Part shown: positions 23,349 to 39,755 of the stretch, piece after piece
How positions within the stretch are numbered: position 1 is the stretch's first letter
Layout of the letters: every line of letters starts with the position of its first letter
Assembly (NCBI RefSeq): GCF_000020725.1
Contig: NC_011146.1
Span: forward strand, 3,972,001 to 4,036,000
Direction: 5' to 3'
DNA: 64,000 bases
DNA from: Citrifermentans bemidjiense Bem
GTDB lineage: Bacteria > Desulfobacterota > Desulfuromonadia > Geobacterales > Geobacteraceae
The notes under the pieces: model-generated
Databases searched by the model: none
What the model saw: only the letters and a program-made list of their open reading frames with translations
What the model was told of the DNA's origin: nothing
Translations under genes and position numbers: made by a program

Positions 23349-23381
23349 TCACATGGGGCATCTAAGAAGCGCCTCCTCTTA

Positions 23382-24270: not shown

Positions 24271-24426
24271 TCAATCCTTGGCAGGTTCCTGAGGGTTGAG
24301 CTTACCAGCTTCAAAAAGCAGCTGGTGGTATGCCCTCCATGTTTCGTGGTCGGCGTCGTCGGCCGGCCTCATGTCAAGAAGTTCCTGGTCCGTGTATTCC
24401 TTCGTCGGGTGTTGTTCGCCGTTCAT
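24271..24426 (-). CDS. Small acidic protein, 51 aa
   Basis: MNGEQHPTKEYTDQELLDMR begins a short acidic protein ending GKLNPQEPAKD. GAAGGGAGA precedes the ATG by seven bases; a longer in-frame version to 24591 looks non-coding. No family recognised. It is the last gene before the serine recombinase and lies downstream of the GNAT gene, so it may be the end of the radical-SAM cassette. Confidence 0.55.
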   Translation of the reverse strand: MNGEQHPTKEYTDQELLDMRPADDADHETWRAYHQLLFEAGKLNPQEPAKD

Positions 24427-24643
24427 CGTGTCTCCCTTCTTTCCTTCCACTCCATCAGCGCCACCCGCACCAACTCCTTCAACGGCGCCCGCTCGGCTGA
24501 TACCGGGGTCGCGGAACTCTGCATCTTCCGCCCTGGTGGAATCTCCCGGACAGCACGCAATCCTTCTTTGGCCTGTCGAATCTAAAATCATCGTAAAGCA
24601 CCCCGCCCCCTGGCCGTTTCAATGCGTGCCTGCATATTGTGGC

Positions 24644-26025: not shown

Positions 26026-27131
26026 GCGGCCTCCTTGTGGACAAACATTCCTTTCGATACTGCATACTGAGTGAAAATCGTTGTCAGACGATGGGTCTCT
26101 TCATCGTTGATCGATCGGCTTTGGTACTCGGTCCCGATGAATGGCTGCACCAGCATGGGAAACACATTGTAACCTGAGGGCATGGCCTCCAGTTCCGCCA
26201 AGATGTCGGCGTAGGTTTCGTCGGGGAGCCCTACTAGGACATTGCCATGATAGGGGATTTCGTATTTGCGCAGGAGCTCGAGCGTCGTGATGATCTGCGC
26301 CCGAGTGATTTGCTTGTTCATCGCCTGCAGCTTGGCGTCAATGAAAGACTCGATACCCACCACGAACCGGCTGCATCCGCCCTCTTTTGCCGCCGCTGCC
26401 ATTTCCTCATCGAACACGTCAACGCGGATCGCTGCTGACCAGGCAAGCCCCCGCTCTTTCATGCCGGCGCAGATTTCCATAAAGCGGTCCTTGCGCAGAT
26501 TCAGCGTGTTGTCGTTGAAAACGATATGCGTGGCGCCGTAGTTGGCCCTATAGCCGTCAATCTCTTCAAACACGGCCGTCAGTCTGCGGAACTGGGAAGA
26601 ACACGTCTGAGCGCAGAATCTGCATGAGTACGGGCAGCCTCTTGAGGTGAGGACGCCCATGTACCGGATGCTGTGCAGCTCGTTGTATCGGTCGATGCCA
26701 AAGCCGTTGTAATCGGGAAGTGGGAGCGCATCAAGATCCGGTTTCAGCCCTTGGATAATCCCCTTGGAGGAAAGCGCCTGCTCCATGACCAGCTCCCCCT
26801 CGCCTACCACTACCGCATCGAAGCATCGCGACATCTCTTCTGCCGCGAAAGTTGCCAACGCCCCACCAAGTACCGTGTGAATGCCCCGTTCTCTGCACCA
26901 TGCGGCGACGATGCAGTTGAACTCGGCGAACGCGGGGAAGCCGGTGAAGAGCGCTGCGTCCGCGCCGACCAGCTCTGACTCGAGGTCGTGTTCCTGAAGG
27001 TTGAAGTTGAGCACCGTCACCTGGTGGCCCATCTGTTTCAGCACTGCGCTGATCGACATGAAACCGAGCGGAAAGCAGCAGGGCTCGTTGATCGGGACGC
27101 TATATTTGGGCAGCACCAGGACTAGCTTCAT
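26022..27131 (-). CDS. B12-binding-domain radical-SAM protein
   Basis: 369 aa. Residues ~1-140 form a B12-binding-like Rossmann domain (VLVLPKYSVP, GFMSISAVLKQMGHQVTVLN, VLGGALATFAAEE, VVVGEGE). The usual DxHxxG histidine motif is not evident, so cobalamin may be bound base-off without a His ligand or not at all. The radical-SAM core has CPYSCRFC, then FNDNTLNLRKDRF, VVGIESF and LVGLPDETY. It is coupled to the 103-aa gene upstream and the second radical-SAM gene downstream, both by ATGA overlaps. The substrate is unknown. Confidence 0.88.
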   Translation of the reverse strand: MKLVLVLPKYSVPINEPCCFPLGFMSISAVLKQMGHQVTVLNFNLQEHDLESELVGADAALFTGFPAFAEFNCIVAAWCRERGIHTVLGGALATFAAEEMSRCFDAVVVGEGELVMEQALSSKGIIQGLKPDLDALPLPDYNGFGIDRYNELHSIRYMGVLTSRGCPYSCRFCAQTCSSQFRRLTAVFEEIDGYRANYGATHIVFNDNTLNLRKDRFMEICAGMKERGLAWSAAIRVDVFDEEMAAAAKEGGCSRFVVGIESFIDAKLQAMNKQITRAQIITTLELLRKYEIPYHGNVLVGLPDETYADILAELEAMPSGYNVFPMLVQPFIGTEYQSRSINDEETHRLTTIFTQYAVSKGMFVHKEAA

Positions 27132-27439
27132 GGCCTCTCCATTTCGGGCTTGGCACTGGTCTCACCCGCGGCAGTGGCCTCTCTGAAATCGTCGGTGCAT
27201 CGTCCGATGCAATCAGGATCGGTATTTTTGCGGGTTATCGGCATACACACAACGGATGTTGCGCGAGCGCACACCACGAGGTGCAGCCCGTCCGTAACAG
27301 GATTTTTCTCGGCCGTGCCGCCGCTGTGTGCTTTGATGGTTTCGGTAGAGGGCGCGGTGGTTATCGCTCCTGGCCTGCAAACGAAGGCTGAGGCGCCGAC
27401 GCCCACCACGTAGGGGCCGGTATCGGTTGTTTCTGGCAT
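27128..27439 (-). CDS. Small cysteine-containing protein, 103 aa, possible cassette substrate
   Basis: Begins MPETTDTGPYVVGVGASAF. Five cysteines are spread over the chain (FVCRPG, VVCARA, VVCMPI, DCIGRC), with a Thr/Ser/Gly-rich middle and a charged tail. AAGGAG six bases before ATG 27439 fixes the start; an upstream ATG at 27469 that overlaps the previous stop is an alternative. No family recognised. Its direct coupling to two radical-SAM enzymes makes it a candidate peptide substrate, but it equally could be a minor structural protein belonging with the large upstream gene. Confidence 0.65.
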   Translation of the reverse strand: MPETTDTGPYVVGVGASAFVCRPGAITTAPSTETIKAHSGGTAEKNPVTDGLHLVVCARATSVVCMPITRKNTDPDCIGRCTDDFREATAAGETSAKPEMERP

Positions 27440-27465
27440 GTTGGTCTCCTTGTCGTGTGCGTGGG

Positions 27466-29910
27466 TCATTGTCTCGCCTTCTCCATGGGCGCCATCGGCG
27501 CGAAGGGCCGGGAGGCGTGGGACGTGTCAGTTTTGGCCGCTGCAGCGCTCACAGCCGAAATCTTCTGAATGTCTGCCAACAAGGTGGACAGGTACGGGCT
27601 ACCTGCCGGGGCCTTCGCCGCCTTCATCAGGATCGACTTGCCCCAGGGCGTTGTAAGCAGGGAAGCGACCAGCTTCGTCATTGCGAGCGCGCCGCCCGTT
27701 GCCATCGGGTGCAGCATCAGCCCGCCACCGATCCCCATTGAAATGCCGGTGTCGGATGCACGTAAGCCTGTTGGCGGGGTCTCCGCAAACTGCCCCGCCC
27801 TTTCTGCGGCCCTCGCCAGCTTCGCCAGACCGCTTATCATCTCGCCCTCTTCACCCGGGAAGATGATCCCCTTCGTGGCGCCCAGCTTCTCGATTGCGCC
27901 GGCAAACTTGGCAGGGCTGAAAGGCACGCCCGGTTTGGTATCCTGCCCGGCCTCCAGCGCCTTCTTGAGCACCGAGTATTTAACGAGCTGCTGCCCTTCG
28001 GGGTCCAGCGCGTCCATAAGCTTGCGCGCCAGCTGCGGGCGGTCGGCCTTGATGAACTGGCTGTGGAGTAGGTCCGTGTCAAAGGTGTTGCCGGTGGCTT
28101 TCTTGACGATCACGTCTTTGAAGGGCGCCACCTGGTCGATGTATGCTTGGTTGCGCTGCTTGAACAGGTTGACCACGTTGCTGTTGGTGGAGTTCTCGCC
28201 CCATGCGTTTATGTCCTGGTCCAGGGCGCGCTTCATGGCGGTGAGCTGGTATGTCTCCTTGCTGCCTACCGCACCCGCTGAGCTGTAGGCCCGCCCGATG
28301 TAGTCGTTCAGCTGCTCCCTCAGTTTCATGGCCTGGTCGAAAGGCAACGCCGCCGGGGTGGTGCGCTTGATCGGATTGCCGCTTGCATCGAGGATTGCCG
28401 CGCTTGGTTGACCTCCGTGGTTGTGCCCGCCTTGGACGATGCCCTGAGAGTCCGCGCCGGGAACCTTGATTGTCGAAGTCTGTGGGCTGGCTCCCTCTGC
28501 TATGGCCGTCAGCTTCGATTTCAGCGGCGTGCTCGGCAGGCGGTCGAAGATGTCGGGGAACTCTTCCAAAAGCGTGGTTGCCGCCGTCCTCAAGTTGTCG
28601 GGTGCTATCGGGCCCACGTTCTGGCTCTTCACCGCCGCGTTGATCTGGGCCTGTATGTTCCCGACGTCCGCCTTGCCATGATTCAAGGTTTTAATCATGC
28701 TCTCCTGGATCTGGTCCGGCACGTCCACCGGGTTGTCAGGGGTGAACTTATCGGCCAAGCGTGCAGCTGCGTCACCGAGTGCCGCCGACTGGCGCTGACG
28801 AAAGCCACGAGTCCCGACGAGCGGCACGCGCTCGAGCTGCGTTTCCAGACTCTTCACGGCGGCATTGCCCGACTCTTCGCCGGCTGTCAGCGGCACGGCC
28901 CACTGTTCACTGAGCCCGGCCAGCTCGGCACGAGGCGTCAGTCCGACGTTACCCCTTGCCACCTTCACCCCGGCGCGGATCGGCTCCGCTATCATCCCTA
29001 GGGTGGCCGCATTACCTACAGGGTTCGTCACCCACCTATCCTTGTCTGCCAGGTCCTTCACCGACTGCAGGGCCCCGTTCGCAACCTGCATACCTCCGCC
29101 TGGTGTGACCGCCGCCGTTGACAGGTCGGACATCATGCCCAGGGCGCCGTTGGCTGTCTTGATTGCTGAACCGGGGATGTTCGAAAGCAGCTCCCTTGCG
29201 TTGGCAGCGACACCGCGGCCGGCGGCCGGGTTGACTGCCGGGGCTTCCGGCTGTTCCTGTCCAAAGATCATGTTGCCCGCCGCCTTTCCGATCCCGCCGC
29301 CAAGGAGCGCACCCGCAGCAAGGCCCCCAGGGACAGGGGAGGCGAACCCGGCCACGCCTCCGACTCCCGCGCCGATCCCCATCAGCGCGCCGCGCCCTGT
29401 TTTTGCCAGCTCGGCGCGCAGCTTCTCCGGGGTGTCGATCCCGAAGTAGGGGTTCTTCATCTTCTCGGCAACACTCATGTCATCGTCGCCCGCCGTCACG
29501 TCCAGGATCGGTTGGCCGTTCTCATCGAGGGCCGGCCCGCCGCTCTGGGCCAGGTCAAGCTCTGCTTTCGATGTGACCTTGGGCGCGTCAGGTGCAGAGT
29601 GCTCCAGGTCGGCAAAGCCGCCCGCCTCATGTTTCGCCGCCAGCTGGTCAAGGACGCCCTTTTGCCCGTGCTTTGCGGCAAGTTTATCGAGTGTGCCGTC
29701 TTGCTCTGCAACCCCTCCCTTGCTGGCGAGATAAAACGCCTTCCTGATATCCGTCTCCGACGGTGGTCCTGAACTCTGGATGGTGAGCTTCTTCCCGGTA
29801 GTCGGGTGCGTCACCTCGTAGGCCTTCATTCCTCCGCCCTGGCCGTACTGTGCCGCCAGTTTATCAAGCGGTCCCTGCGGTTCTTTTGCCAAATCGTCAA
29901 ATGCTCCCAT
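27466..29910 (-). CDS. Large phage DNA-ejection/internal-virion-like protein
   Basis: 814 aa from MGAFDDLAKEPQGP. The N-terminus has three or four short repeats of the type LDKLAA(Q/K)(Y/H)GQ (residues ~4-110), typical of podovirus ejection proteins. A strongly hydrophobic glycine-rich segment follows (~170-215: GIGAGVGGVAGFASPVPGGL). The middle is long and helical, and the C-terminus has a second Gly/Met-rich hydrophobic region. Such proteins are packed in virions and help DNA cross the envelope. Finding one without capsid, portal or terminase genes is notable. The start at 29910 has GGAGAG upstream. Family assignment is by pattern only. Confidence 0.65.
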   Translation of the reverse strand: MGAFDDLAKEPQGPLDKLAAQYGQGGGMKAYEVTHPTTGKKLTIQSSGPPSETDIRKAFYLASKGGVAEQDGTLDKLAAKHGQKGVLDQLAAKHEAGGFADLEHSAPDAPKVTSKAELDLAQSGGPALDENGQPILDVTAGDDDMSVAEKMKNPYFGIDTPEKLRAELAKTGRGALMGIGAGVGGVAGFASPVPGGLAAGALLGGGIGKAAGNMIFGQEQPEAPAVNPAAGRGVAANARELLSNIPGSAIKTANGALGMMSDLSTAAVTPGGGMQVANGALQSVKDLADKDRWVTNPVGNAATLGMIAEPIRAGVKVARGNVGLTPRAELAGLSEQWAVPLTAGEESGNAAVKSLETQLERVPLVGTRGFRQRQSAALGDAAARLADKFTPDNPVDVPDQIQESMIKTLNHGKADVGNIQAQINAAVKSQNVGPIAPDNLRTAATTLLEEFPDIFDRLPSTPLKSKLTAIAEGASPQTSTIKVPGADSQGIVQGGHNHGGQPSAAILDASGNPIKRTTPAALPFDQAMKLREQLNDYIGRAYSSAGAVGSKETYQLTAMKRALDQDINAWGENSTNSNVVNLFKQRNQAYIDQVAPFKDVIVKKATGNTFDTDLLHSQFIKADRPQLARKLMDALDPEGQQLVKYSVLKKALEAGQDTKPGVPFSPAKFAGAIEKLGATKGIIFPGEEGEMISGLAKLARAAERAGQFAETPPTGLRASDTGISMGIGGGLMLHPMATGGALAMTKLVASLLTTPWGKSILMKAAKAPAGSPYLSTLLADIQKISAVSAAAAKTDTSHASRPFAPMAPMEKARQ

Positions 29911-29969
29911 GTCGTTCTCTCCTTGCGCCCTGCCGTGCCTGGTCAATGTTGGTGGCCGGAATTTGGCCG

Positions 29970-30209
29970 TTAAATGTCAGCGAGCATCGCCCTGGCAAAC
30001 TTAACCAGTTGCCGTGACTCCCGCCGGATCGCGAGTGCCTCTCTTGTAAACATGCCTGTTCGGTATCTGCCGTGCGCTTTTCCTGCTAGTGATTTGCCAC
30101 CGTGCAGCCGACACTTCCCGTTCGGCATGGCAGGCTGGTGGCATCGCCCTGCTGAACGAGTTTTTGCCCCACAGTAAACCCTAGGTATGGGGTAATCTTC
30201 AATTTCCAT
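29970..30209 (-). CDS. Conserved small phage protein with HGG motif
   Basis: 79 aa from MEIEDYPIPRVYCGAKTRSA. The pattern CGAKTRSAGRCHQPAMPNGK then CRLHGGKS...GRYRTGMF is a recurrent small phage protein with conserved Cys, His and Gly-Gly, often encoded next to packaging genes. The cysteines and histidine probably bind zinc. It overlaps the previous gene by 11 bases, and the plus-strand poly-C run just upstream (30212-30230) provides the purine-rich ribosome-binding region. Function unknown. Confidence 0.75.
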   Translation of the reverse strand: MEIEDYPIPRVYCGAKTRSAGRCHQPAMPNGKCRLHGGKSLAGKAHGRYRTGMFTREALAIRRESRQLVKFARAMLADI

Positions 30210-30819
30210 CCTGCCCCCCCCTACCCCCCTCCCCACGGTTGACATTGCCGACGATAGCTTGCCCGCCTTCGTGGACATGGACATGCTCCACGCGGACCTG
30301 TTGCCCGCCCTTACCGCGAAGCTTCTGCATCGCTTCAACCTGAGCAGTAAATGTCCGCTGCAACTTGGTCGCCATGTTCACGTTTGATTCCCTGCCTTGG
30401 ATGCTTTGCCCTTCGTAGAAGGCCTGTCCCATGCACCTGTTGATACCTTCGCTCACCTGGATCATTTGCACAGCCAACAGCGTTTCAAGGTAGCTCTGTG
30501 GTTTCATTGCTTCGATCTGCAAAAGCGCCAGGTCTACTTCTTTGTCCACGTCCTTACCCTTCCGGACTATGGTTGCATCCTCGTTGGCCTTGACAGCTAG
30601 CTCGTAATGGTCTGTCTTGCACACATCCAAAAAGGCCCCTAAGACTTCAGGTGTGCCGTGTATCACGCCGCCGCCTTCCGTGCGAGGCACGAGCGACGAC
30701 CTTGCCGAGCCAGCGCGGAAGATTTCGGCCAACCGTTCCTGTTCTGAGCTGAGCGGTTTTGCCGCCACATCTCCCGCTGTTTTGACGTTGGCCAGTTGGT
30801 TGGTTTTTCGCTTAGTCAT
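30199..30819 (-). CDS. Conserved hypothetical phage-type protein, 206 aa
   Basis: Begins MTKRKTNQLANVKTAGD. The central part VDLALLQIEAMKPQSYLETL and VQMIQVSEGINRCMGQAFYE is helical. Toward the end TKLQRTFTAQVEAMQKLRGK is followed by QQVRVEHVHVHEGGQAIVGN. This histidine-rich tail is a feature I associate with phage proteins next to HGG-motif and terminase genes, but I cannot name the family. It overlaps both the 54-aa ORF upstream and the HGG gene downstream. Confidence 0.7.
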   Translation of the reverse strand: MTKRKTNQLANVKTAGDVAAKPLSSEQERLAEIFRAGSARSSLVPRTEGGGVIHGTPEVLGAFLDVCKTDHYELAVKANEDATIVRKGKDVDKEVDLALLQIEAMKPQSYLETLLAVQMIQVSEGINRCMGQAFYEGQSIQGRESNVNMATKLQRTFTAQVEAMQKLRGKGGQQVRVEHVHVHEGGQAIVGNVNRGEGGRGGQDGN

Positions 30820-30976
30820 CTGTGCCCCTGATTGGTACCCTGTTCTCACTTGGCGGCCCTTGGGCCACTCCCAGAGACCGCGGCGATGTGGCTGCTAAAC
30901 GGACTCTCCGGACTTGTGCCAGGATACTGGCCATAGCCCCCTCAGGGATTCGCGTCTTGCTCGCCCGTTTTTTCAT
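30812..30976 (-). CDS. Small basic protein, 54 aa, coupled to dnaB
   Basis: MKKRASKTRIPEGAMASILA begins a basic protein ending IRGTDD. The ATG overlaps the helicase stop by four bases (ATGA), and the stop overlaps the next start by eight bases, filling an otherwise empty gap exactly. AGGAGGAC lies 5-10 bases upstream, inside the helicase 3' end. These overlaps support a real gene despite its size. No family recognised. Confidence 0.6.
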   Translation of the reverse strand: MKKRASKTRIPEGAMASILAQVRRVRLAATSPRSLGVAQGPPSENRVPIRGTDD

Positions 30977-32316
30977 ACTGCTGTCCTCCTCTTGGGCTTC
31001 TCTTCCTTGGGCTTCGTGTAGCTAACCATGTCCTGAAACTGGAATGACGGCTTGTCGATGACCACCTTCAGGCGCCAATCCTTGGGGCCGTTCCGGTTCT
31101 TCAGCCCCTTGCAAATGAGGTCTCCAGCTTCGTCGGTGTAGAACCCGAGCATGAAGTCAGCGCCCGCTTCGATGTCGCCGCCACCCTTGGCGCTGTGGGC
31201 GGCAATGTCGTACTCCACCTTAGCGGCCTCACGGTTGATCTGGCAGAGCAGGACCACCGGGACCCCCAACTCCTTGGCCATGTTCTTGACGCCGGCGGAA
31301 ATATACGCGGTCCGGTCGAAAAGGGTTTTTCCGGGGGCGTCAAGGAGGCCCATGTAGTCAATCCCGATCGCGTTGATCTTGCCGTACTTCTGCCCGGCCA
31401 GTTCGGTGAGGCGCGCTATCTTCTCCAGATTGAGGCGCGGCTTGTCACAGACCAGGAGCCCCATGGACCCGCCGCTAACCATGCCAGCGCCGACTGTGCC
31501 CGCCATGGCCTGGCCGCCGTCGACGTTGAAAGTGTCCTCGACCGCCCGGCCAGTCATTCCTGTGCTGATTTGGACCTCGCGCTCGAACACCTTTTCAACA
31601 GGCATTTCGAGGGAGAAGAAGAGGTGAAAGAAATGGGTGCGCTTGGCGCCGGCGAGGAGGAGGTTTTGAAGGAATGCCGTCTTGAAGCTGCCAGCGTAGG
31701 CGATGATGGTCATCACCTCGCCGGGGGCCACCCCGCGGATCAGAGAGTCGAGGCGAGAGAACCCGGTGACAAACCGGCTCTGCTGGATAGTCTTGATCTG
31801 CTTTTCGTAGCGGGCCGCCCGGGAGTCCATGTCAGCAATGTCGGCAATACTCACACCGCCGTAGGTGTCCATGCTCGAGGCGATAGAGGCGAGCCCCGCC
31901 TTTGCCTCTTGTAGGCCCTCTGCGACCGAGCAGCCGTCATGCGCTATTGTGATAAGAGACTGCGCGTAGGCAATGATCTGGCGCCGGGTGGCCGCCTCCT
32001 TCACCATCTTGCAGTAATGGACGACATTCGCGCTCATCGGCACGTAGTCAACCAAAATGGCTAGGTACGCCCCGCCGCCGATCTGCTCGAGGGTGCCGGC
32101 GTCCCGGAGGTGTTTCGTGAGGGTGACCAGATCGAAAGGGCTATCGGCCAGTTGGAGGGAGAGGAACGCGTGGAAAATGAGTCTGTGCGACTCCCGATAG
32201 AAGTCGGCGCCGTCAAGGATGCCTCTCACCTGTTTGAGACAGGGGTTGTCGATCAGGACCGCGCCAAGTACGCTCATTTCTGCTTCGATATTCTGGGGGG
32301 GTGGTTCACGCTGCAT
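30973..32316 (-). CDS. Replicative DNA helicase, DnaB family (phage type)
   Basis: 447 aa from MQREPPPQNIEAEMSVLGAV. The N-terminal DnaB domain (~8-110) is followed by a linker and a RecA-like motor. Walker A is degenerate: AYAGSFKT (206-213) in place of the usual GxxxxGKT. Walker B is AIGIDYMGLL, followed by VVLLCQINR. The GGGDIEAGADFMLGFY stretch is typical. An upstream in-frame extension to 32538 is rejected because it is the shadow of the preceding gene. It overlaps the loader-like gene by 11 bases. It is likely to drive replication of the excised element. Confidence 0.93.
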   Translation of the reverse strand: MQREPPPQNIEAEMSVLGAVLIDNPCLKQVRGILDGADFYRESHRLIFHAFLSLQLADSPFDLVTLTKHLRDAGTLEQIGGGAYLAILVDYVPMSANVVHYCKMVKEAATRRQIIAYAQSLITIAHDGCSVAEGLQEAKAGLASIASSMDTYGGVSIADIADMDSRAARYEKQIKTIQQSRFVTGFSRLDSLIRGVAPGEVMTIIAYAGSFKTAFLQNLLLAGAKRTHFFHLFFSLEMPVEKVFEREVQISTGMTGRAVEDTFNVDGGQAMAGTVGAGMVSGGSMGLLVCDKPRLNLEKIARLTELAGQKYGKINAIGIDYMGLLDAPGKTLFDRTAYISAGVKNMAKELGVPVVLLCQINREAAKVEYDIAAHSAKGGGDIEAGADFMLGFYTDEAGDLICKGLKNRNGPKDWRLKVVIDKPSFQFQDMVSYTKPKEEKPKRRTAV

Positions 32317-32980
32317 TGCTTTCCTCCTCTGGGATCCAGTCTTGCCAGTTGTTGAACCAGGTCTCACCCTTCTTGACAAACCTCGGCTGGACCCCTTCAC
32401 GCTCGATGTGATCAAGATAAGAGCCCAAAGCCAAGTTGATGCGCTCCTTGTCGGATTCATTTTTGACCGTCGCACTGAAATGGCGCTGGGCAGATTTTTT
32501 CCCGTCCTTCCGGGGGTAGGCCGCCCAAAGTTTTTCAAAAAAGAGGGCGAAATCAGACGAGTCTTTTAAAGGATTAGGATTAGGATCTTTAGTAGTGCAC
32601 TGCGATCTGTCTGTTATCTGTCCGTCTTCTGTCCGCTTTCTGTCCGTCACGCTCGGCAAGCACTTGGAATCTATGATTTTTATCTGCCCGTTATCTGCTC
32701 GTGATCTGCTCGATATCTGTATCATGATCTGTCCGCGCTGATTCTGCTTCTGGCCGGTGGTTTCGGGGTACTCGATGCTGGCCCCGATCTCCCCCAGGAA
32801 CCGATCAACCCTACCTCTCGACCACCTCCATAAACTGGCATACCCGTTGACGGTCACCTGTTTCCCCTGGTCGTAATCGACCGATAAAGAGAGCATCGCT
32901 TCTAGTCGTGTGAAGGCCCGGTCCTTTGGCAGCTCAGACAGCAAGGCCTTAGAAATTGGCACCCAGTTCCCCCCGTTCAC
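32306..32980 (-). CDS. Replication initiator/helicase-loader-like protein
   Basis: 224 aa. The GTG start at 32980 overlaps the previous stop (GTGA). The N-terminal part, WVPISKALLSELPKDRAFTR to YASLWRWSRGRVDRFLGEIG, is a winged-helix region as in phage replication O-like/DnaD-like proteins. After a polar linker, the C-terminal FEKLWAAYPRKDGKKSAQRH and ETWFNNWQDWIPEE form the small domain recurrent in phage replication proteins next to DnaB. It probably binds the element origin or loads the helicase. A longer frame to 33286 is not protein-like. Confidence 0.8.
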   Translation of the reverse strand: MNGGNWVPISKALLSELPKDRAFTRLEAMLSLSVDYDQGKQVTVNGYASLWRWSRGRVDRFLGEIGASIEYPETTGQKQNQRGQIMIQISSRSRADNGQIKIIDSKCLPSVTDRKRTEDGQITDRSQCTTKDPNPNPLKDSSDFALFFEKLWAAYPRKDGKKSAQRHFSATVKNESDKERINLALGSYLDHIEREGVQPRFVKKGETWFNNWQDWIPEEESNAA

Positions 32981-33198
32981 ACCCTCACCGCCGCTAGCGC
33001 TGCCTCGGTGTAGTTCTGGCCAGCGTAGCTCAGGATGTTTTGGCGCCTGGATATCTGGCGCTGTGCCTGAAGGCAGAGCTTCACCTGATCGAAGAGCTGA
33101 GACTTCCTGGTGGACTCGCTTATGCCGGCAGCGAGGGAGATTGACACTTTCGGGTTGAGGAACGGCTCGTCGTAATATCTGCGGGAGGGGTTGGTCAT
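32977..33198 (-). CDS. Small protein, 73 aa, replication operon
   Basis: MTNPSRRYYDEPFLNPKVSI starts it; FDQVKLCLQAQRQISRRQNI follows. Basic, helical, no family recognised. Both ends overlap neighbouring genes by four bases (ATGA at the start, GTGA at the stop), strong evidence that it is translated as part of the replication operon. Confidence 0.65.
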   Translation of the reverse strand: MTNPSRRYYDEPFLNPKVSISLAAGISESTRKSQLFDQVKLCLQAQRQISRRQNILSYAGQNYTEAALAAVRV

Positions 33199-33425
33199 TT
33201 GGTCCTCCCGGCCCGGAGCTGCCGGTACAAGAAGCCGCGGATTGACAAAAGCCGCTTTGCCGGCAAGCAGAGATCGTCGCAGGCAAAGCGTGTGACGGCC
33301 GATATTACTTCGGGGGAATCTGGAAACGTGAAGGTCTGAAGCCCTGTTATGGGCCTGTTCAGGGTCGGTTGCAACCCTGTACTCGTGAGAATTGCTGCTG
33401 CGAGGTCGATTTCTGATGTCGTCAT
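33195..33425 (-). CDS. DUF5659-like small protein, 76 aa
   Basis: From MTTSEIDLAAAILTSTGLQP. The pattern DLAAAILTSTG, then TFTFPDSPEVISAVTRFACD and AKRLLSIRGFLYRQLRAG resembles DUF5659 phage proteins, whose role is unknown. ATG 33425 is used rather than 33473 since the family N-terminus begins there. It overlaps the next gene by four bases. It is the first gene of the replication operon after the excisionase-like gene. Confidence 0.7.
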   Translation of the reverse strand: MTTSEIDLAAAILTSTGLQPTLNRPITGLQTFTFPDSPEVISAVTRFACDDLCLPAKRLLSIRGFLYRQLRAGRTK

Positions 33426-33548
33426 TTCGTAGTGTCTCCGGTGCCGTGGAGTCTCCGCCGCTCGGCTCTTCAATACCCCCTTTTCACGGTTAGGTCGTTG
33501 TGCTGCTTCTGTAGGCTCTAGCCTCGATGTCTGCCCGGGGTTTCTATC

Positions 33549-33779
33549 TTACGCTGCCGATTGCGCTTCAGTGGTGCTACTGAAAACCCGCGCTTCGAGG
33601 AAGGCGTCCAGGTCGGCCTGGCGATAACGGACAGAGCGGCCAATTTTGACGAAGGGGCAACCGACCCCCTGCCAGCGGTGCTGCTCCAGAGTAGAGGGTT
33701 TTTGCTTCAAATATGCTGCTGCTTCGGCGGTGGTGAGTAATGCAGGGGTGGGGGTGACATGTGGAGATATTTTTGACAT
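33549..33779 (-). CDS. Excisionase-like helix-turn-helix protein (second paralogue)
   Basis: 76 aa from MSKISPHVTPTPALLTTAEA. The recognition helix region AEAAAYLKQKPSTLEQHRWQ is followed by GCPFVKIGRSVRYRQADLDA. It closely matches the 18082-18348 protein in the WQGxGxPFVKxGRxVRYR core. GGAGAACAGG precedes the ATG. Lying 127 bases from the 198-aa gene near the integrase end, it is the better candidate for the excisionase (directionality factor); the other may be a regulator. Confidence 0.83.
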   Translation of the reverse strand: MSKISPHVTPTPALLTTAEAAAYLKQKPSTLEQHRWQGVGCPFVKIGRSVRYRQADLDAFLEARVFSSTTEAQSAA

Positions 33780-33905
33780 GACGCCTGTTCTCCTTTTAGT
33801 GGTGGACTTGGGAGGAGTTCTATCACATGCTTTTAAGACAGAAAAAGGACCCAACTTTTTTAGTTGAGTCCTCGCGCGTGAGGCTAGAGCTGACAGAGTT
33901 CTGGA

Positions 33906-34502
33906 CTATGTACGGCGGTCCTTGGCAGCCTTCTTGAGTATCTCGGTTCGGTTATCCCTATACTTTTTGACAGTCGAAATTGCTATCCCTTGCACAACTG
34001 CGACAATGCAATCAGCAATCTCTGAGTGGGTATCTGGCATGACTTCACCATCACGGCCTTCCAAGGCTCCGGTTCCTCCCGCAATGCCAAAGACTTCGCA
34101 TAATGTCACATTTCGCTCATCCTCCGTAAGCTGGTTAAATCCCATCCCATCCAACGCGTTCTTTATTGTCAGCCATTGGCCCGCTATCTTGGCTTTATTT
34201 CCAACACGCCTTGAACCCCCGTAAGCCAAAGCCGCCCCAACTGCCTTTAGACACGCTTGAGATTTGAGAAAAACGTCATCATCAGGGGACTTAAGGCCTA
34301 CGCGCCACTTCATGATTTTCGACCTCCCATAATTCGTGAATAGATACCCGGAGTTCTCCTTCAAACTAGAGATAAAATTCTCATCTGCAACTTCGGCGTC
34401 AGTCAAGCAATTCAGAGCATCTTCGTCTAAAATGGGTTCCCGATATCTATCATTCCCCCCCAGGAGGGGCGCTAACCGAATGCGGCCGTATGTCTTTTCC
34501 AT
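33906..34502 (-). CDS. Hypothetical protein, 198 aa
   Basis: Begins MEKTYGRIRLAPLLGGNDRY. Mixed alpha/beta, with ENSGYLFTNYGRSKIMKWRV, a glycine-rich FGIAGGTGALEGRDGEVMPD and a basic C-terminus (VKKYRDNRTEILKKAAKDRR). Base composition is lower in GC than its neighbours, suggesting separate origin. I do not recognise it. It is directly downstream of the integrase (61 bases), a site where satellites and prophages often carry accessory or defence genes; that is context only. Confidence 0.7.
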   Translation of the reverse strand: MEKTYGRIRLAPLLGGNDRYREPILDEDALNCLTDAEVADENFISSLKENSGYLFTNYGRSKIMKWRVGLKSPDDDVFLKSQACLKAVGAALAYGGSRRVGNKAKIAGQWLTIKNALDGMGFNQLTEDERNVTLCEVFGIAGGTGALEGRDGEVMPDTHSEIADCIVAVVQGIAISTVKKYRDNRTEILKKAAKDRRT

Positions 34503-34563
34503 CGCGTGTCCCCCTAAACGAAACCCGTCATAGGCTCGGAACCATGTCTTTCGCCTGTTCCAC

Positions 34564-36024
34564 TTACTCTGCCTTTGCCTGTATCGGAACTACTTGCCCA
34601 TGCTGCTTCTTGATCCGCTCCTGTATCGCGTCGGTCATCTTCTGCATGGGCTCACGCAGCCGGTCAGCATTGAGGATGATGTAGCCGCCTGTCACGTCGC
34701 CAGACTGCTCCTTGTGGTTGAGCAGGGCCTTTATTGTGTACTTGGACAGGTCGAGGCTCTCAGCGATAGTTGCGAAGGTCCGGCGCAGATCATGGCAACT
34801 GAAGATGATGCCCGTCGCCTGGGTGACAGCTTCAAGAGCCTTTTGAGGATCGGCAATGTAACCGGCTCTGCCACTGCCCGGGAACACATAGGGAGACTGC
34901 AGCCGGGACTCTGCTGCGGCTACTCGGTTGCGAAACGCCTGGCGCTGTTTCGGTGTCAGGTACTCCGGGGAGTGCAGGGAAGCTTCGAGAGCAGCCTTAG
35001 CCGCTTCGAGCTCGGTCTTCAGGCCTTCCTTGCGCCCCTCGAGAAGGGTGTGGAGGTAGTCGCTTAACGGGAGGGTGTGAGGTTCCTTGTTCTTGGTGTC
35101 GATGATGGTGAAGCATCCATCTTCGAAATCGACGTGCTGCCACTGAAGACAGGCCGCCTCGTTTCGCCTAAGGCCGGTGTGCAGGAGAAACAGCAGGTAA
35201 TCTCTTGCCACGGCGTTCTCAAGCGCAAGGACTGCCTTGCTCCATGCGGGAAGGTCGCTGTTCTTGATCAGGTTGCGGCGCCGCGGGACCTTGTACCAAG
35301 CCTTCTTTCGGGACAACGTGCGGACCGGGTTGGGCCTGACGATCCCGAGCTCCTCATCGTCCCCGAACGTGTAGTTGAGGACGGCACGGAGGACGCGCAT
35401 GGTGCCGTCAGCGGAGGCCTCCCTACGCTGAGAGTCCGGAACCTTGGACTTCTCCACCTTGGGCTTTCCTTTGCCTTTGTCGACCACGGCCTTTTTGAGG
35501 GCGGTACGGTTTCTTGCACCGGTCGCGATGTCGGTGTGACGTTGCGCCACCATAGTGCTGGTGATCTCCCCGGCCGGGAGCTGCAACCAGTCGGAGAGGT
35601 GCAGGCGGAACAATTGTTTGTAGGTGGCCAGCGTCTTCGGCTTCAGCTTCCGTTTTTCCAGGTAGACCTTCAAGGCATCCTCCAAGGTCACCACCTGGCT
35701 CTTTTGCGCTTCTTCTTCCTTCCTGGCGTCCTCTGTCCGCTTCTTCGCCGCCCGCTTCTCCTCGTTTGGGTCCTGGCCTCTGCCCATGTCAGCCAAGGCG
35801 CCCTCGGCCCGTTTCCGCGCCTGCTCCGCGGTGATCTTGTCAGCGGTGTCGATCTTGGCTCTCACCAGCTTGCCGTTGACGCGACGCATGACGAAGTATG
35901 TCTTGGTGGAGGGGGAAACGCGGATCCCGAAGCCTCGAAGCGCATCATCGAAGTAATCCACCCGGCCCTCGGCTGGCCGCTCAAGCTTGTCTATAGCTGT
36001 CTTGGTGATGTGTATAGTCGGCAT
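34564..36024 (-). CDS. int: Tyrosine-type site-specific integrase
   Basis: 486 aa from MPTIHITKTAIDKLERP, the start of the DUF4102/P4-type N-terminal arm-binding domain (GFGIRVSPSTKTYFV). The core-binding domain is around 113-225. The catalytic domain has Arg286 in TGLRRNEA, His411 and Arg414 in HDLRRTFA, His437 and nucleophile Tyr448 in GGYIILNADRL. A charged coiled insert lies at ~330-372. AGAGGGGGGAGAG precedes ATG 36024; the frame upstream to 36108 is rejected. The gene starts 186 bases from attR, with GTTACCC repeats in between. It catalyses integration into tRNA-Thr. Confidence 0.96.
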   Translation of the reverse strand: MPTIHITKTAIDKLERPAEGRVDYFDDALRGFGIRVSPSTKTYFVMRRVNGKLVRAKIDTADKITAEQARKRAEGALADMGRGQDPNEEKRAAKKRTEDARKEEEAQKSQVVTLEDALKVYLEKRKLKPKTLATYKQLFRLHLSDWLQLPAGEITSTMVAQRHTDIATGARNRTALKKAVVDKGKGKPKVEKSKVPDSQRREASADGTMRVLRAVLNYTFGDDEELGIVRPNPVRTLSRKKAWYKVPRRRNLIKNSDLPAWSKAVLALENAVARDYLLFLLHTGLRRNEAACLQWQHVDFEDGCFTIIDTKNKEPHTLPLSDYLHTLLEGRKEGLKTELEAAKAALEASLHSPEYLTPKQRQAFRNRVAAAESRLQSPYVFPGSGRAGYIADPQKALEAVTQATGIIFSCHDLRRTFATIAESLDLSKYTIKALLNHKEQSGDVTGGYIILNADRLREPMQKMTDAIQERIKKQHGQVVPIQAKAE

Positions 36025-36043
36025 CTCTCCCCCCTCTCGCTTT

Positions 36044-36091
36044 GTTACCCCGACTGTTACCCAGGAGCTGTGGGTAACACATGGGTAACAC
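36044..36091. promoter_or_regulatory. Probable right arm-type integrase sites
   Basis: Four GGGTAAC units: two inverted (GTTACCC near 36044 and 36055) and two direct in TGGGTAACACATGGGTAACA (36071-36090). The direct pair is identical to the one inside the left end. The cluster also overlaps the integrase promoter region, so it could give autoregulation. Confidence 0.65.
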
Positions 36092-36209
36092 TTTACAGCG
36101 AACCCCATCTGACATGGTAGAACAAGACTAAGGTTAATTCACTGTTATGTCAAGCAATTACAGAAGAGGGTAGAACAAGGCAAGGTATAGAGATAGGGTC
36201 AATTCAAGA

Positions 36210-36261
36210 ATTCGTAATCAGCAAGTCGGCGGTTCGAATCCGCTCTTCGGCTCCATAAAAA
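36210..36261 (+). repeat. attR: 52-bp direct repeat (tRNA-Thr 3' fragment)
   Basis: Identical to 16339-16390. It holds only the 3' part of tRNA-Thr, from the anticodon loop to TCCA plus AAAAA, with no matching 5' half, so it is a truncated copy rather than a gene. Confidence 0.95.
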
Positions 36262-36293
36262 AGCCCCCTCATATCGAGGGGGCTTTTCTTTTT
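36257..36293 (+). terminator. Original tRNA-Thr terminator displaced by the insertion
   Basis: AAAAGCCCCCTC-ATATC-GAGGGGGCTTTT followed by CTTTTT directly after attR. Before insertion it would have followed the tRNA. Confidence 0.9.
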
Positions 36294-36415
36294 CCAGACG
36301 TTCGCTGTCACCGATCCAAGCCCCCCGCAACATAAGCCCGAAACCCACGCCTGCCCCAGCTACCTGCAGCCGAGGGGAGCGCGCCCGGGATAACAACGGG
36401 AGGGGAACCGTTGGA

Positions 36416-36617
36416 GTAAAAATTGAAAGGCCCGCCGAATCCGGCGGGCCTCTGGTTGTAGTGTCTTACATTGGGTACCCTTTTCAAGGGTGGATGCCGG
36501 TACCTATGCGGACCGGACCGTTACTACTTTCAAGTTTTGAGAATCCTAATCGGTGGGGTTTCCTCTATGGTCGGGTACCTCCTTATTCCGAGATTTCTCT
36601 TAGCTAGCTAGCTGAGT
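36416..36617 (-). ncRNA. Putative small RNA, copy 1 of a three-member family
   Basis: Minus strand. A -10-like GATAAT (36628-36623) precedes the conserved start CAGCTAGCTAGC. Blocks shared with the other copies are ATCTCGG, AAGGAGGTA, GAGGAAAC, CCACCGAT, AGGATTCTCAAAA and CCGGCATCCACCCTTG. It ends in an intrinsic terminator (GGCCCGCCGGATTCGGCGGGCC plus T run). There is no start codon behind the AAGGAGG, so it is not a small ORF. I cannot match it to a known RNA family. Confidence 0.72.
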
Positions 36618-36967
36618 CATACATTATCACTGGTCGCACCAAAGAAACAGTCTGTTGAAATATTTTTTTAGCGTGTATACTGCTTCAGTTGCCCGCTCCA
36701 GAAAAAGCTCCCGTCTATGAGAGAACCCTCACCAGCTAACAGAGAACATGCCCTAACTGCAGAGTGACCCAAGCCTTTTACGACCTCGCACAGACTGTTC
36801 TTGCGCTTGAGAGAGCGGCTTGGCCACGCTCGCAGCGAGCGCCCTGCTGGCGGCGCAGTCCCTGGGACGCAAAGAAGGCGCCCCTCAGGAGATGCCGCTG
36901 GTATGCAGTGAGAGTTTTGTAGGATGGAGTCGGGATGGCTGGAGGGGATGACCAACGGGTGGGCTCG
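36618..36967. other. Spacer between RNA copies 1 and 2
   Basis: Contains the promoter of copy 1 with the dyad AACAG-T-CTGTT (36647-36657). The rest (36670-36960) has short GC-rich inverted repeats (GCTCGCAGCGAGC) but no credible gene. Confidence 0.45.
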
Positions 36968-37148
36968 AAATTGAAAGGCCCGCCGGTTTCGGCGGGCCTC
37001 TCTCATCGAGAACCCTTTGCAAGGGTGGATGCCGGAGCCTGTGAGCTCCGGACTATTACAGCCGTCAATTTTTGAGAATCCTGATCGGTGGAGTTTCCTC
37101 TAAAACGGTTTACCTCCTTGGCTCGAGATACTCTGACTAGCTAGCTGA
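36968..37148 (-). ncRNA. Putative small RNA, copy 2 of a three-member family
   Basis: Minus strand, most similar to copy 1. GTTAAT (37160-37155) is the -10 candidate, then CAGCTAGCTAG, ATCTCG, AAGGAGGTA, GAGGAAACTCCACCGATC (a GAG-GAAA-CTC hairpin with a GNRA tetraloop), AGGATTCTCAAAA, and a GTCCGGAGC...GGCTCCGGC helix. It ends in the terminator GGCCCGCCGAAACCGGCGGGCC. The same AACAG-T-CTGTT dyad lies upstream. Confidence 0.74.
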
Positions 37149-37280
37149 TTTCAAATTAACACCACTGACGCGAAAGAAACAGTCTGTTGTAAAAAAAATT
37201 TTCCGTATATACTGCTGAAGTTGTCTCTCCAGGCCTCCCCCGCATTTACACAGGTTCAATTCCCACTGACATAGAGCCCA

Positions 37281-37814
37281 CTAGTTGTAGACCGCCGCGG
37301 TCTTCGTAGCGTTATGCGCAGCCCCTATGCCTGTGCTGGTGACCTCAACTCCACCTTTGCTCCTCTGGGCCTGGTACTGTGTGACAGTCCCGTGGTCCCT
37401 GAATGAAGCAACGGAGTTGCCGCTCTTGACGTTCCAGTTGATGGAAAGCGTGTCCAGATAGGTATCGCCCCGGTAATGGTTGAAGGTATAGGTGACGTTG
37501 TCGCCGTCTTTGCGGGCGTTCACCTGGAAGCGCTCGCCGTTTTCAGCGTACTGGAAGTTCTTCTCGCCTTGCGCCACGGGGTTGTTGCCGCTCCAGAATT
37601 CGATGGTGTTGAACAGCACGAAGTCGACAAGCGCCGCTATGCCGTACACGGGGACGATGATGAAGACCCAGGTGACCAGGCTGCGCAGGAATTTGTCATG
37701 CACCTCGCCGTTCACCCGGTACACCTTCCTGGTCAGGGCCATCTTACCGTAGCATCCCTGAAGTGAAGCCATGGCGATGACCATGGCAAGTACCGCTGCT
37801 GTTACTCTTTTCAT
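37281..37814 (-). CDS. DUF3332-family lipoprotein
   Basis: 177 aa. A lipoprotein signal peptide (MKRVTAAVLAMVIAMASLQG then Cys21) directs it to the envelope. The family signature continues with LTRKVYRVNGEVHDKFLRSL, a hydrophobic VTWVFIIVPVYGIAALVDFV that is probably membrane-embedded, and FNTIEFWSGNNPV. The C-terminal half is beta-rich (VTYTFNHYRGDTYLDTLS). The function of the family is unknown. The gene lies between RNA copies 2 and 3 on the same strand, which may be meaningful. GGGAGGAAATC precedes the ATG. Confidence 0.82.
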   Translation of the reverse strand: MKRVTAAVLAMVIAMASLQGCYGKMALTRKVYRVNGEVHDKFLRSLVTWVFIIVPVYGIAALVDFVLFNTIEFWSGNNPVAQGEKNFQYAENGERFQVNARKDGDNVTYTFNHYRGDTYLDTLSINWNVKSGNSVASFRDHGTVTQYQAQRSKGGVEVTSTGIGAAHNATKTAAVYN

Positions 37815-37946
37815 GATTTCCTCCCTTGGTTTTATGATTTAATGCTATCTATCCCTCTCCCCATCCTCATTGCGGGGCGAAGTTCTCTTTTTACGTCTGC
37901 TCTCGACATCCGATGATTGTCACAGCTACCACACTTTGCCGCGAGG

Positions 37947-38138
37947 TGGAAAAGAAAAGAGGCCTGCACTGGTACGCGGGCCTCTTTTGCTTGTTCGATC
38001 CCTCGTTGCAGGGGTCACTCCAGTGCTGCTCGCACCGGATCCTTTACTTCTGTCTTGTAATTGGAATTCTCTTCGGTGGAGTCTCCTTCGATGCTGCTAC
38101 CTCCTTTTTCCGAGATCCTGTTACAGCTAGCTAGCTGT
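37947..38138 (-). ncRNA. Putative small RNA, copy 3 of a three-member family
   Basis: Minus strand, more divergent. TATAGT (38149-38144) is the -10 candidate, followed by CAGCTAGCTAGCTG, GATCTCGG, AAAAAGGAGGTA, GAAGGAGACTCCACCGA and AGAATTC. It ends with the terminator AAAAGAGGCC...GGCCTCTTTTCTTTT. Conservation of order and of the AAGGAGGTA/CTCCACCGA pair across all three copies argues for a structured RNA. Confidence 0.68.
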
Positions 38139-38408
38139 GCTTAACTATACCACCCATCAGCGAAATTTACAGAGAGTGTCAAATTTTATTTTGAGCATGT
38201 GCACCGCAGCTATGACTCTTAGCTGCAATTGCTGCTTGAGAAGACAACGACCAATAGCAGCGTTGAGACTGGACTTTGAAAACGTGGATGCTAGAATCCG
38301 TTGGTGCATTAACCGGGGCAAATGCCCCGAACCACGGATCCCGGCAAAGCCGCCCTGCCAAGCGGAATGTCCGGGTACCTACTCCAGCGCTGAAAGCGGG
38401 GGCCTCCC
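38139..38408. other. Leader region of the M23 peptidase gene
   Basis: 270 bases without a gene. The last ~110 bases contain GGGGC-AAAT-GCCCC (38317-38330), then CCCGGCAAAGCCG and GTCCGGGTACC. The mix is faintly like a GEMM riboswitch but does not fit its conserved core. It may be a structured 5' leader. Confidence 0.4.
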
Positions 38409-39755
38409 ATGAGAACTTCGGCAATCCTCGGGTTATTTTTCTTGTTTGTCGTCATCGCAGCAGGGATCGGGATCTATTACTTCGTCGACACCTCCGGCCC
38501 GGCCCTGGCGCTTTCCCGTCGCCCTGGCCCTATCGCCTCCAGGGCAGACCTGATCCTGACCCTGCGGGACCGCGCTTCGGGCCTCAAATCCCTGAACGTG
38601 CAGGCGGTGCAGAGAGAAAAGAGCTTCACCATCCTGAACAAGGAGTACGCCGCCGGGACCACCGACGCGAAGGAGACCTTCCGGCTCCCGCCCCCCCCCG
38701 GACTGAAAGAGGGCCCGGTGACACTGCGGATAGCGGCTTCCGACCGCTCCGTCTTCAGGTTCGGCTCGGGCAACAGCACCTCCGTGGCGCTGGAGTTCGT
38801 GGTGCAGAACAAGCCCCCTGTGGTAACCGTGCTCAGCACCGCGCACAACGTCTCCCCGGGAGGCTCCGCCCTGGCCGCATACACGCTGAACCGTGACGTG
38901 GTCAAGACCGGCGTCACCTTCGCGGACAGGTTCTATCCCGGTTACAAGCAGCCCGAGGGGTACTACGCCTCCCTGTTTCCGTTCCCCTACGACGTCCCCC
39001 CGGAACGCTTCATACCCAAAGTCTTTGCGATGGACCAGGCGGGGAACGAACGGCTTACCGGGATCTACTACCGGATCCTGGCGAAGAGCTTCCCGAAGGA
39101 CCGCATCGAGCTGAGCGACGCCTTCCTGGAGAAGATCTTCACCGAATTCAAGGACCGCTTCCCCCAGATAAAGAACCCGCTAGAGCTGTTCCTGAAGGTG
39201 AACCGGGAGGTGCGGCAAAGCGACGCGAAGATACTGCAGCAGTGCAGCCTGAAAACCTCCCCCACCCCTCTTTGGGAAGGGGAGTTCATGCGCCTCCCCA
39301 ACTCCGCCCCGCGCGGCAGCTTCAACCAGTTGCGCAGCTACTATTACCAGGGAAAAGAGGTGGACCAGCAACATCACCTGGGAATCGACCTGGCCTCGCT
39401 TTCCCACGCCAAGGTTCCCGCGGCCAACCGCGGCAAGGTGGTATATGCCGACGACCTGGGGATCTACGGCCAGTGCATCATCATCGACCATGGGATGGGG
39501 CTGCAGAGCCTGTACGGCCACCTGAGCCGGATCGGCGTGAAGGAAGGGGACCTGGTGAAAAAGGGGGACATCATCGGCGACACCGGGGACACCGGGCTTG
39601 CGGGGGGGGACCACCTGCATTTCGGCGTGGTGGTGTCGGGCCAGGAGGTGAACCCGATCGAATGGTGGGACCCGTCCTGGATCAAGAACAACGTCACGGA
39701 CAAGTTGAAAGACGCAAGGGAAGCCGCGGCTGCGGCCGCCGGGGCCGCGAAGTAG
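38409..39755 (+). CDS. M23-family metallopeptidase, membrane anchored
   Basis: 448 aa. One N-terminal transmembrane helix (~7-25) anchors it, with the rest periplasmic. Residues ~30-300 are a beta-rich non-catalytic region. The C-terminal M23 (LytM) domain has His323 and Asp327 in HHLGIDLAS, and the second zinc-ligand motif HLHFG (His402/404). All expected ligands are present, so it is probably an active peptidoglycan endopeptidase rather than an EnvC/NlpD-type activator. An Ala-rich tail ends the protein. It is 40 bases upstream of gpmA on the same strand. Confidence 0.92.
   Translation: MRTSAILGLFFLFVVIAAGIGIYYFVDTSGPALALSRRPGPIASRADLILTLRDRASGLKSLNVQAVQREKSFTILNKEYAAGTTDAKETFRLPPPPGLKEGPVTLRIAASDRSVFRFGSGNSTSVALEFVVQNKPPVVTVLSTAHNVSPGGSALAAYTLNRDVVKTGVTFADRFYPGYKQPEGYYASLFPFPYDVPPERFIPKVFAMDQAGNERLTGIYYRILAKSFPKDRIELSDAFLEKIFTEFKDRFPQIKNPLELFLKVNREVRQSDAKILQQCSLKTSPTPLWEGEFMRLPNSAPRGSFNQLRSYYYQGKEVDQQHHLGIDLASLSHAKVPAANRGKVVYADDLGIYGQCIIIDHGMGLQSLYGHLSRIGVKEGDLVKKGDIIGDTGDTGLAGGDHLHFGVVVSGQEVNPIEWWDPSWIKNNVTDKLKDAREAAAAAAGAAK

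Follow-up and report, generated by a model that had tools for sequence, protein, structure and literature searches.

A family of small structured RNAs in the Geobacterales with putative very short reading frames and non-AUG start codons

What is encoded by three related, closely spaced segments on the minus strand of the Citrifermentans bemidjiense Bem genome? The segments lie in a window of 64,000 nucleotides, positions 3,972,001-4,036,000 of the single 4,615,150-base contig NC_011146.1, which is also what the whole-genome scans below cover; coordinates are those of the window unless stated otherwise. The original prediction, made from the sequence alone, regarded them as a multicopy family of small RNAs (sRNAs) of no recognised Rfam class, with GGA motifs that could bind CsrA/RsmA and an AAGGAGG that no open reading frame (ORF) follows. 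The multicopy family and the lack of an Rfam class stand, but the CsrA/RsmA role is unsupported and a reading frame does follow. In our reading, each copy is probably a free-standing small mRNA, perhaps a dual-function one, whose initiation is held to codons of the kind used by infC. That its micro-ORF is translated is, judging from sequence conservation, highly probable. Comparison of homologous sequences establishes the family itself, a common frame, a codon-like pattern over six codons, a non-AUG codon at the start position, and a covarying CCGG hairpin and terminator, and it establishes that the members have no common downstream gene.

Three copies and their relatives

All motifs listed in the original prediction were found in the order given on the minus strand of all three segments, here called copies 1, 2 and 3 (c1, c2 and c3). 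The copies run from the 5' motif CAGCTAGCTAG, which starts at 36614, 37147 and 38137, respectively, to terminator ends at 36426, 36974 and 37957. With at most one mismatch, CAGCTAGCTAG has six matches in the window against 0.54 expected, and five of these six fall at the three copies (the motif is self-complementary and both strands were counted). Pairwise BLAST aligns c1 with c2 over 272 nt (72.8% identity, E 9e-41), c1 with c3 over 110 nt (74.5%, E 5e-13), and c2 with c3 over 75 nt (70.7%, E 2e-5). The pattern AAGGAGGTAN{5,25}ACYCCACCGA matches the genome exactly three times, at the three copies, and its reversed control does not match at all. A first covariance model, built from 13 members including c1, c2 and c3, scores them at 183.5, 159.9 and 136.5 bits, respectively; the remaining 15 matches in this genome reach at most 21.8 bits, and 13 of them span the 3' end of the model only. 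The folding z-scores of the copies are -3.7, -4.0 and -3.2. The three are thus related, each with promoter-like and terminator sequences, as expected of the multicopy family proposed, and the -10-like boxes noted before each start are seen in the sequence. The features are as follows, all on the minus strand.

36647..36655, minus: copy 1 promoter box ACAGACTGT, with the -10-like TAATGT 20 nt downstream
36621..36628, minus: copy 1 -10-like element (GATAATGT), by direct sequence inspection
36426..36614, minus: copy 1 predicted transcript body, CAGCTAGCTAG to terminator T run, 183.5 bits
36578..36584, minus: copy 1 Shine-Dalgarno (SD) sequence AAGGAGG
36530..36568, minus: copy 1 putative micro-ORF, AUA start, (M)EETPPIRILKT stop, 12 codons
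36497..36516, minus: copy 1 CCGG hairpin, with family covariation
36477..36491, minus: copy 1 ACCCUUGAAAAGGGU hairpin, with weak family covariation (columns 171-183) and stems compensated by eye
36426..36452, minus: copy 1 intrinsic terminator
37179..37187, minus: copy 2 promoter box ACAGACTGT
37154..37159, minus: copy 2 -10-like element TTAATT, by direct sequence inspection
36974..37147, minus: copy 2 predicted transcript body, 159.9 bits
37113..37119, minus: copy 2 SD sequence AAGGAGG
37065..37103, minus: copy 2 putative micro-ORF in the family (c1) frame, UUA at the start position, LEETPPIRILKN stop, 12 codons; start codon doubtful
36974..37000, minus: copy 2 intrinsic terminator
38169..38179, minus: copy 3 promoter-box variant ACACTCTCTGT, an inexact match to the box
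38144..38149, minus: copy 3 -10-like element TATAGT, by direct sequence inspection
37957..38137, minus: copy 3 predicted transcript body, 136.5 bits
38100..38106, minus: copy 3 SD sequence AAGGAGG
38015..38092, minus: copy 3 putative micro-ORF, AUC start, (M)EGDSTEENSNYKTEVKDPVRAALE stop, 25 codons
37957..37984, minus: copy 3 intrinsic terminator

The impression that the copies belong to no Rfam class is borne out as well. At the gathering cut-off, Rfam 15 finds only a thiamine pyrophosphate (TPP) riboswitch and tRNA in the window, with nothing at the three copies, and only a neighbouring tmRNA in eight relatives. A permissive scan of 36000-38600 gives sub-threshold matches only, the best at 26.7 bits against a cut-off of 55.

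Relatives were sought at increasing distance. Citrifermentans bremense R1 has the same three copies. A pattern scan of the genome contig collection returned 40 stretches, among them the three of C. bremense and one each in seven Geomonas species and two Geobacter metagenome-assembled genomes; the other 30 were counted as chance by taxonomy, their sequences unread. The first covariance model matches 130 of 141 genomes of the order at E <= 0.01. Because the low-scoring end of these matches mixes members with terminators, the sequences of 70 of 75 matches, from 61 high-scoring sources, were inspected; of the five that were dropped, three were pieces of the 3' end and two were weak matches in antisense orientation. 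A second model, built from 52 diverse members, matches all but 7 of the 141 order genomes at E <= 1e-4 by a tally of the listing, in which a few matches, with E near 1e-5 to 1e-7, may consist of the terminator alone. It also matches 214 of 277 genomes in a sample of the class, many weakly, and 17 of 148 in a phylum-wide sample. Of 13 matching genomes outside the class, 12 have 3'-end pieces only; the match in the other (29.4 bits) spans the model, yet its sequence contains neither an SD nor an ORF. Twenty-eight further loci were displayed, 19 from other families of the class, eight from the order and one from the phylum. Seventeen of the 19 have an SD and AUC followed by Glu, Asp or Lys, the other two not being displayed properly, and the eight from the order comprise one of the SD and AUC type, three with AUG and T-P-P-G, and four with an AUC identified by eye after a weaker SD. 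Judged by these searches, which the original prediction had proposed as a check, relatives of the three copies occur in most of the order, with weaker matches extending into the class.

The micro-ORF and its start codon

The statement that no ORF follows AAGGAGG is correct only in that there is no AUG, GUG or UUG start. A conserved frame does follow, opening 7-9 nt past AAGGAGG at a non-AUG codon (AUA in c1, AUC in c3 and UUA in c2). AAGGAGG was also suggested as something that could mimic or pair with ribosomal RNA signals; it is indeed related to them, but as an ordinary SD site before a micro-ORF. Likewise, the GAGGAAACTCC element described as a hairpin is not conserved as one, but reads as codons GAG GAA ACT CC. 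and is AAAGAAACTCC in Geomonas copies; together with CCACCGA, it supplies the codons for E-E-T-P-P. In 69 of the 70 inspected members, AAGGAGG is followed after 3-13 nt by a near-cognate or canonical codon; this is a loose criterion, and therefore the argument for coding rests on the family alignment of 109 rows.

In this alignment, the four G columns of AAGGAGG are kept in 107-109 rows, and the intervening A is replaced by G in 19. Conservation in the columns that follow is codon-like: A 94%, U 91%, N 49% at the start codon; G 94%, A 81%, N 54% and G 91%, A 92%, N 39% at codons 2 and 3; A 82%, C 89%, U 91% at codon 4; and C 82%, C 94%, N 58% and C 97%, C 95%, N 35% at codons 5 and 6. Deviations from the consensus over the start and five codons number 67, 64 and 299 at codon positions 1, 2 and 3 (column-permutation p 0.001). 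The corresponding numbers are 50, 42 and 165 in the 70 rows with AUC, AUA or AUU (p 0.002, or 0.010 with the start codon removed), 30, 20 and 94 when these are thinned to below 75% identity (41 rows), and 0, 2 and 40 in the 23 AUG rows (p 0.015).

Frame and stop are also kept within subfamilies. In the c1-type, both are retained in 21 of 21 rows, 20 of them with 12 codons and one, locus L084, with 13 counted from ACG. In the c3-type, 14 of 15 rows start at AUC and run for 25 codons to the same stop with no indels, the remaining row, again from L084, having 12 codons. Among 11 unique c1-type rows, frame 0 has no stops and the other forward frames have stops in 7 and 3 rows; among 12 unique c3-type rows, the figures are none, 12 and 10. 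The predicted peptide has the consensus fM-[E/D]-[E/D]-(x)-T-P-P-x..., and most members have 8 to 33 codons. Reading all 109 rows in the raw column frame gives 8 to 33 residues in 108 of them, the shortest (MEDTPPER etc.) having 8, and 68 in the exception, L117:856.

These observations bear on one alternative, namely that the RNA is a non-coding decoy for the 30S subunit or an initiation sensor, in which an SD with a poor start parks or counts 30S subunits. It would account for an AAGGAGG almost invariant over the 109 rows and for a start codon kept poor in most members, but not for codon periodicity that extends past the start, for stop positions kept within subfamilies, or for an AUG- or GUG-like start in 31 of 109 members, and we regard it as improbable.

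How firmly is the non-AUG codon placed as the start? In the raw columns, the start position is AUC in 50 rows, AUG in 23, AUA in 19, AUU in 1 and another codon in 16. After correction by hand, it is non-AUG in 78 of 109 (AUC 53, AUA 20, AUU 2, UUA 2, ACG 1) and AUG-like in 31 (AUG 28, AUG/UUG 2, GUG 1), so that AUC, AUA or AUU follows the SD in 75 rows, those of c1 and c3 included and that of c2, with UUA, excluded. Since about a quarter of members have AUG at the very same column, AUC and AUA are best read as the start and not as an internal Ile. On a FastTree tree computed without the start codon, changes between AUG-like and non-AUG number 7 against a mean of 27 with shuffled labels; thus the start type is inherited, and AUG occurs mostly in one paralogue clade. 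Spacing was measured in the 80 rows without AUG or GUG at the start position, in which the two AUG/UUG rows are included: 71 have 7-9 nt between GGAGG and the start (range 5-13), and in 60 the aligned RNA has no in-frame AUG, GUG or UUG before the start position, since reading upstream meets a stop in 45 and the 5' end in 15. The main AUG clade has a longer SD spacer, mostly 10-13 nt. AUC- or AUA-started and AUG-started paralogues can occur in one genome, as at L138 (both copies), at L130 and L154, and at L158 and L163.

A parallel for such starts is infC, an ordinary long operon gene that begins with AUU in E. coli and autoregulates. The infC gene of C. bemidjiense (TIGR00168; genome positions 2297210-2297707) reads AGGAGG-TGGCGTC-AUA-GCU-AAA, and its frame holds no canonical start between the preceding stop and AUA; AUA is thus the apparent start of infC in this genome, too. 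In both cases a strong SD is followed after 7-9 nt by an AUH codon (H being A, C or U), a kind disfavoured by initiation factor 3 (IF3), although the ORF here, unlike infC, is in most members only 8 to 33 codons long and lies on a structured RNA that stands alone. In the IF3 titration of Katoh and Suga, raising IF3 lowers formylmethionine incorporation at mismatched third bases, and that for AUU/CAU falls to 31.1% (PMC10158994).

Several points weigh against the coding and non-AUG-start interpretation. The permutation tests take columns as units without a tree model, and the start-codon census depends on 14 rows re-registered by hand. The variable columns of the c3-type ORF number 16, 12 and 13 by codon position, so there is no third-position excess, and in the c1-type a reverse-strand frame has a mean BLOSUM score for differing codons of 1.06 against 0.91 in the ORF frame. 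The ORFs are very short, and their C-termini vary in length and even in frame between subfamilies; Pro-Pro-x is not found in all, some subfamilies having T-P-E, S-P-E or S-T-E. The low third-base substitution of the T codon also fits pairing of CUCC with the SD, and some of the conservation may thus reflect RNA structure. With respect to the start, the UUA of c2 is an unlikely one, and a canonical in-frame codon precedes it in 20 of the 80 rows, upstream of the SD in 12 and between SD and AUH in eight. The latter eight include both AUG/UUG rows and L245, in which AUG directly precedes AUC; some of the 20 may start at the upstream codon, in particular a few of these eight, L245 above all. Finally, the titration by Katoh and Suga did not include AUC or AUA read by CAU, and gating of the start codon by IF3, drawn by analogy only, is conceivable but somewhat short of an even chance.

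Structure, promoter and neighbouring genes

Is the RNA, then, selected for its structure? In the family alignment, the terminator and the CCGG hairpin clearly covary, and homologues thus do support structures seen in the original prediction. For the UGAAA-loop hairpin, covariation is weak (columns 171-183, z 5.9, paired 0.83 vs 0.71 expected), and is taken as weak evidence because non-pairing column pairs such as 81-87 rank above it in the scan; by eye, its stem is compensated (CCCU/AGGG, CCCA/UGGG, GCCG/CGGC). The 5' end carries a short stretch that by eye is self-complementary, with a group-specific sequence (CAGCUAGCUAG, CAGGUAGCGCUACCUG, CAAGCAACGUUGCUUG). Sequestration of the SD by GGAG:CUCC pairing was considered as the main conserved structure and is unsupported, the pairs hardly varying, one being broken in c1, and none covarying. 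Longer-range helices (the spacer with AGUAUCG, and ACUGCC with GGCAGU) are plausible by eye in some subfamilies, with no rise in covariation.

A free-standing unit with a covarying CCGG hairpin and terminator, and a peptide whose C-terminal part is unconserved in sequence, length and frame, could also be a base-pairing regulatory sRNA in which the peptide is irrelevant and a ribosome on the micro-ORF serves only to stabilise the RNA or to switch its state. Against this, substitutions over codons 1 to 6 follow a synonymous pattern, which speaks for a role of the residues encoded there, and no conserved unpaired seed was identified, no target search having been made; we consider this explanation possible but doubtful. 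A dual-function RNA would combine both aspects. Like the SgrS/SgrT type, the present family would have a short transcript with its own promoter, a terminator, hairpins and a small ORF; it differs in having no known pairing target, a non-AUG start through most of the order, and another sequence and size.

The multiple copies and their several GGA motifs also recall CsrB, CsrC, RsmY and RsmZ, from which the family differs in its micro-ORF and in lacking GGA enrichment. The original suggestion was a sponge of the CsrB/RsmY type for CsrA. The copies have 5 (c1), 4 (c2) and 7 (c3) GGA motifs against 4.9, 4.3 and 4.5 in their shuffles, so that c3 does stand above expectation, and CsrA acts in Geobacter sulfurreducens, for which predictions of CsrB-like sRNAs at other named loci exist (PMC11934962). 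Over the 109 rows, however, the mean is 4.98 GGA per RNA against 5.04 in dinucleotide shuffles, and the second GGA (GAGGA) is missing in Geomonas c1-type copies with AAAGAAACTCC. Since GGA is not enriched over the family, CsrA/RsmA binding is unsupported as the reason for these motifs, and a sponge is extremely unlikely.

Upstream, a box of the form ACAG-N-CUGU occurs loosely in 54 of 70 members and lies 20-22 nt before the -10-like box in 46 of 70, both counts made without a chance control. Its exact form ACAGACTGTNNNTT is found in the genome at copies 1 and 2 only. A promoter regulon was considered and dropped, since sites with one mismatch to ACAGACTGTNNNTT number 22 beyond the two exact ones and 29 in the reversed control, which is chance level.

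Could the copies instead act on a neighbouring gene? Across genera, no family recurs among the downstream genes, and the commonest first same-strand cluster follows 4 of 70 members by rough ORF strand calls. Because the neighbouring genes differ between genera, each unit appears free-standing and transcribed alone. The original prediction had drawn attention to one neighbour in particular:

37281..37814, minus: DUF3332 protein gene, between copies 3 and 2; association mainly in this genus group

This gene is present here and recurs in the genus group, where tblastn finds it at 14 of 21 loci (13 of 18 genomes besides this one), each time between two copies; the arrangement is mainly a habit of that group, DUF3332 being found at 1 of 14 loci in other genera. 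A leader-peptide attenuator of a downstream gene, for instance copy 3 for DUF3332, would agree with the terminator after the micro-ORF, with the position of copy 3 upstream of DUF3332 on the same strand, and with the recurrence of DUF3332 between two copies in the 13 genomes just mentioned. It is nevertheless very improbable, given the 4 of 70 for the commonest downstream cluster (the ORF caller sometimes took the wrong strand) and the lack of a comparable gene at copies 1 and 2. What the family does share with leader peptides and pause sites responsive to elongation factor P (EF-P) is a very short ORF with an early Pro-Pro-x motif; it differs from them in having no common downstream gene and in subfamilies without Pro-Pro.

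In another genus of the family, locus L117 has copies at 867-1037 and 1640-1823 beside a DUF3332 gene on the opposite strand, and thus the association with DUF3332 may predate the genus. At L117, L118, L122, L146 and L164, the element lies near genes of clusters 4 and 5, which by their sequences resemble hemE and a radical S-adenosylmethionine protein of a heme synthesis cluster.

A small mRNA with conditional initiation

If each copy is a small mRNA, as we favour, the following picture can be drawn, in which transcription and translation are read from the sequence. A dedicated promoter would start an RNA of about 175-190 nt comprising, in order, a 5' hairpin, the AAGGAGG SD, the micro-ORF, the CCGG hairpin, the UGAAA-loop hairpin and the terminator. 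Start-codon proof-reading by IF3, as for infC, would keep initiation low, and by the same analogy initiation would rise once IF3 becomes scarce relative to 30S subunits. Early Pro-Pro-x codons might then slow the ribosome just past initiation. Such motifs can pause ribosomes in the absence of EF-P, although only a subset do (PMC4140641), which is why an early pause may occur here. The output would be a short acidic peptide, a ribosome-occupied state of the RNA, or both; given the variable C-terminus, what matters is more likely to be either the first six or seven residues or the act of translation.

The non-AUG start suggests that cells deliberately keep translation weak or conditional. A poor start long retained beside a near-perfect SD points to selection for weak or conditional initiation, to our knowledge a rarity that is limited to infC and few other genes. 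A bolder version is a class-wide, free-standing sensor of initiation, in which AUC or AUA would be translated, and the ribosome paused at Pro-Pro, only if initiation factors or EF-P are limiting, and the occupied RNA or the fM-E-D-T-P-P peptide would report in trans. The AUG paralogues in some of the same genomes would be its ungated counterpart. We consider this version rather unlikely.

Small mRNAs as a kind, and non-AUG starts under IF3, are already known. Our literature searches, to which the supplements of the genome papers did not belong, returned nothing recognised as this family or as small RNAs with AUC starts. Anonymous multicopy sequences have been catalogued for G. bemidjiensis (PMC2996986) and G. 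metallireducens (PMC2700814), and the three copies may already be listed, without interpretation, in the supplements of those papers. The families of the G. bemidjiensis paper are likewise intergenic, multicopy and from the same genome; as described there, they have no function or coding assigned, and most of them lack counterparts in G. sulfurreducens and G. metallireducens; the present family, by contrast, occurs through most of the order. Small RNAs have also been reported with coordinates from G. soli, in a paper that cites Qiu et al. 2010 for G. sulfurreducens (PMC6013743). Within the searches made, a free-standing structured micro-mRNA family with poor starts kept through most of an order is new.

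On this sequence evidence, a widespread type of tiny free-standing gene is apparently unannotated. If our reading is true, most genomes of a metal-reducing order carry an overlooked gene that annotation pipelines skip on two counts, its length below 35 codons and its AUC or AUA start. It would offer a simple natural reporter of how cells select start codons, and with it one could test directly whether bacteria sense the supply of initiation factors in trans. It would also serve as a warning that other “structured non-coding RNAs” with GGAGG may be non-AUG micro-mRNAs.

Further features of the window lie outside the three copies. A plasmid origin for the copies was searched for, with no match. 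The TPP riboswitch, at 3084-3185 on the plus strand, is above the Rfam gathering score. A candidate integrative element occupies 16309-36261, between tRNA-Thr(CGT) (16309-16384) and a repeat of the 3' part of this tRNA; the repeat is exact over 52 bases, at 36210-36261 and, on the tRNA side, at 16339-16390. At the right end of this candidate element, adjoining copy 1, a tyrosine integrase is encoded at 34564-36108 on the minus strand.

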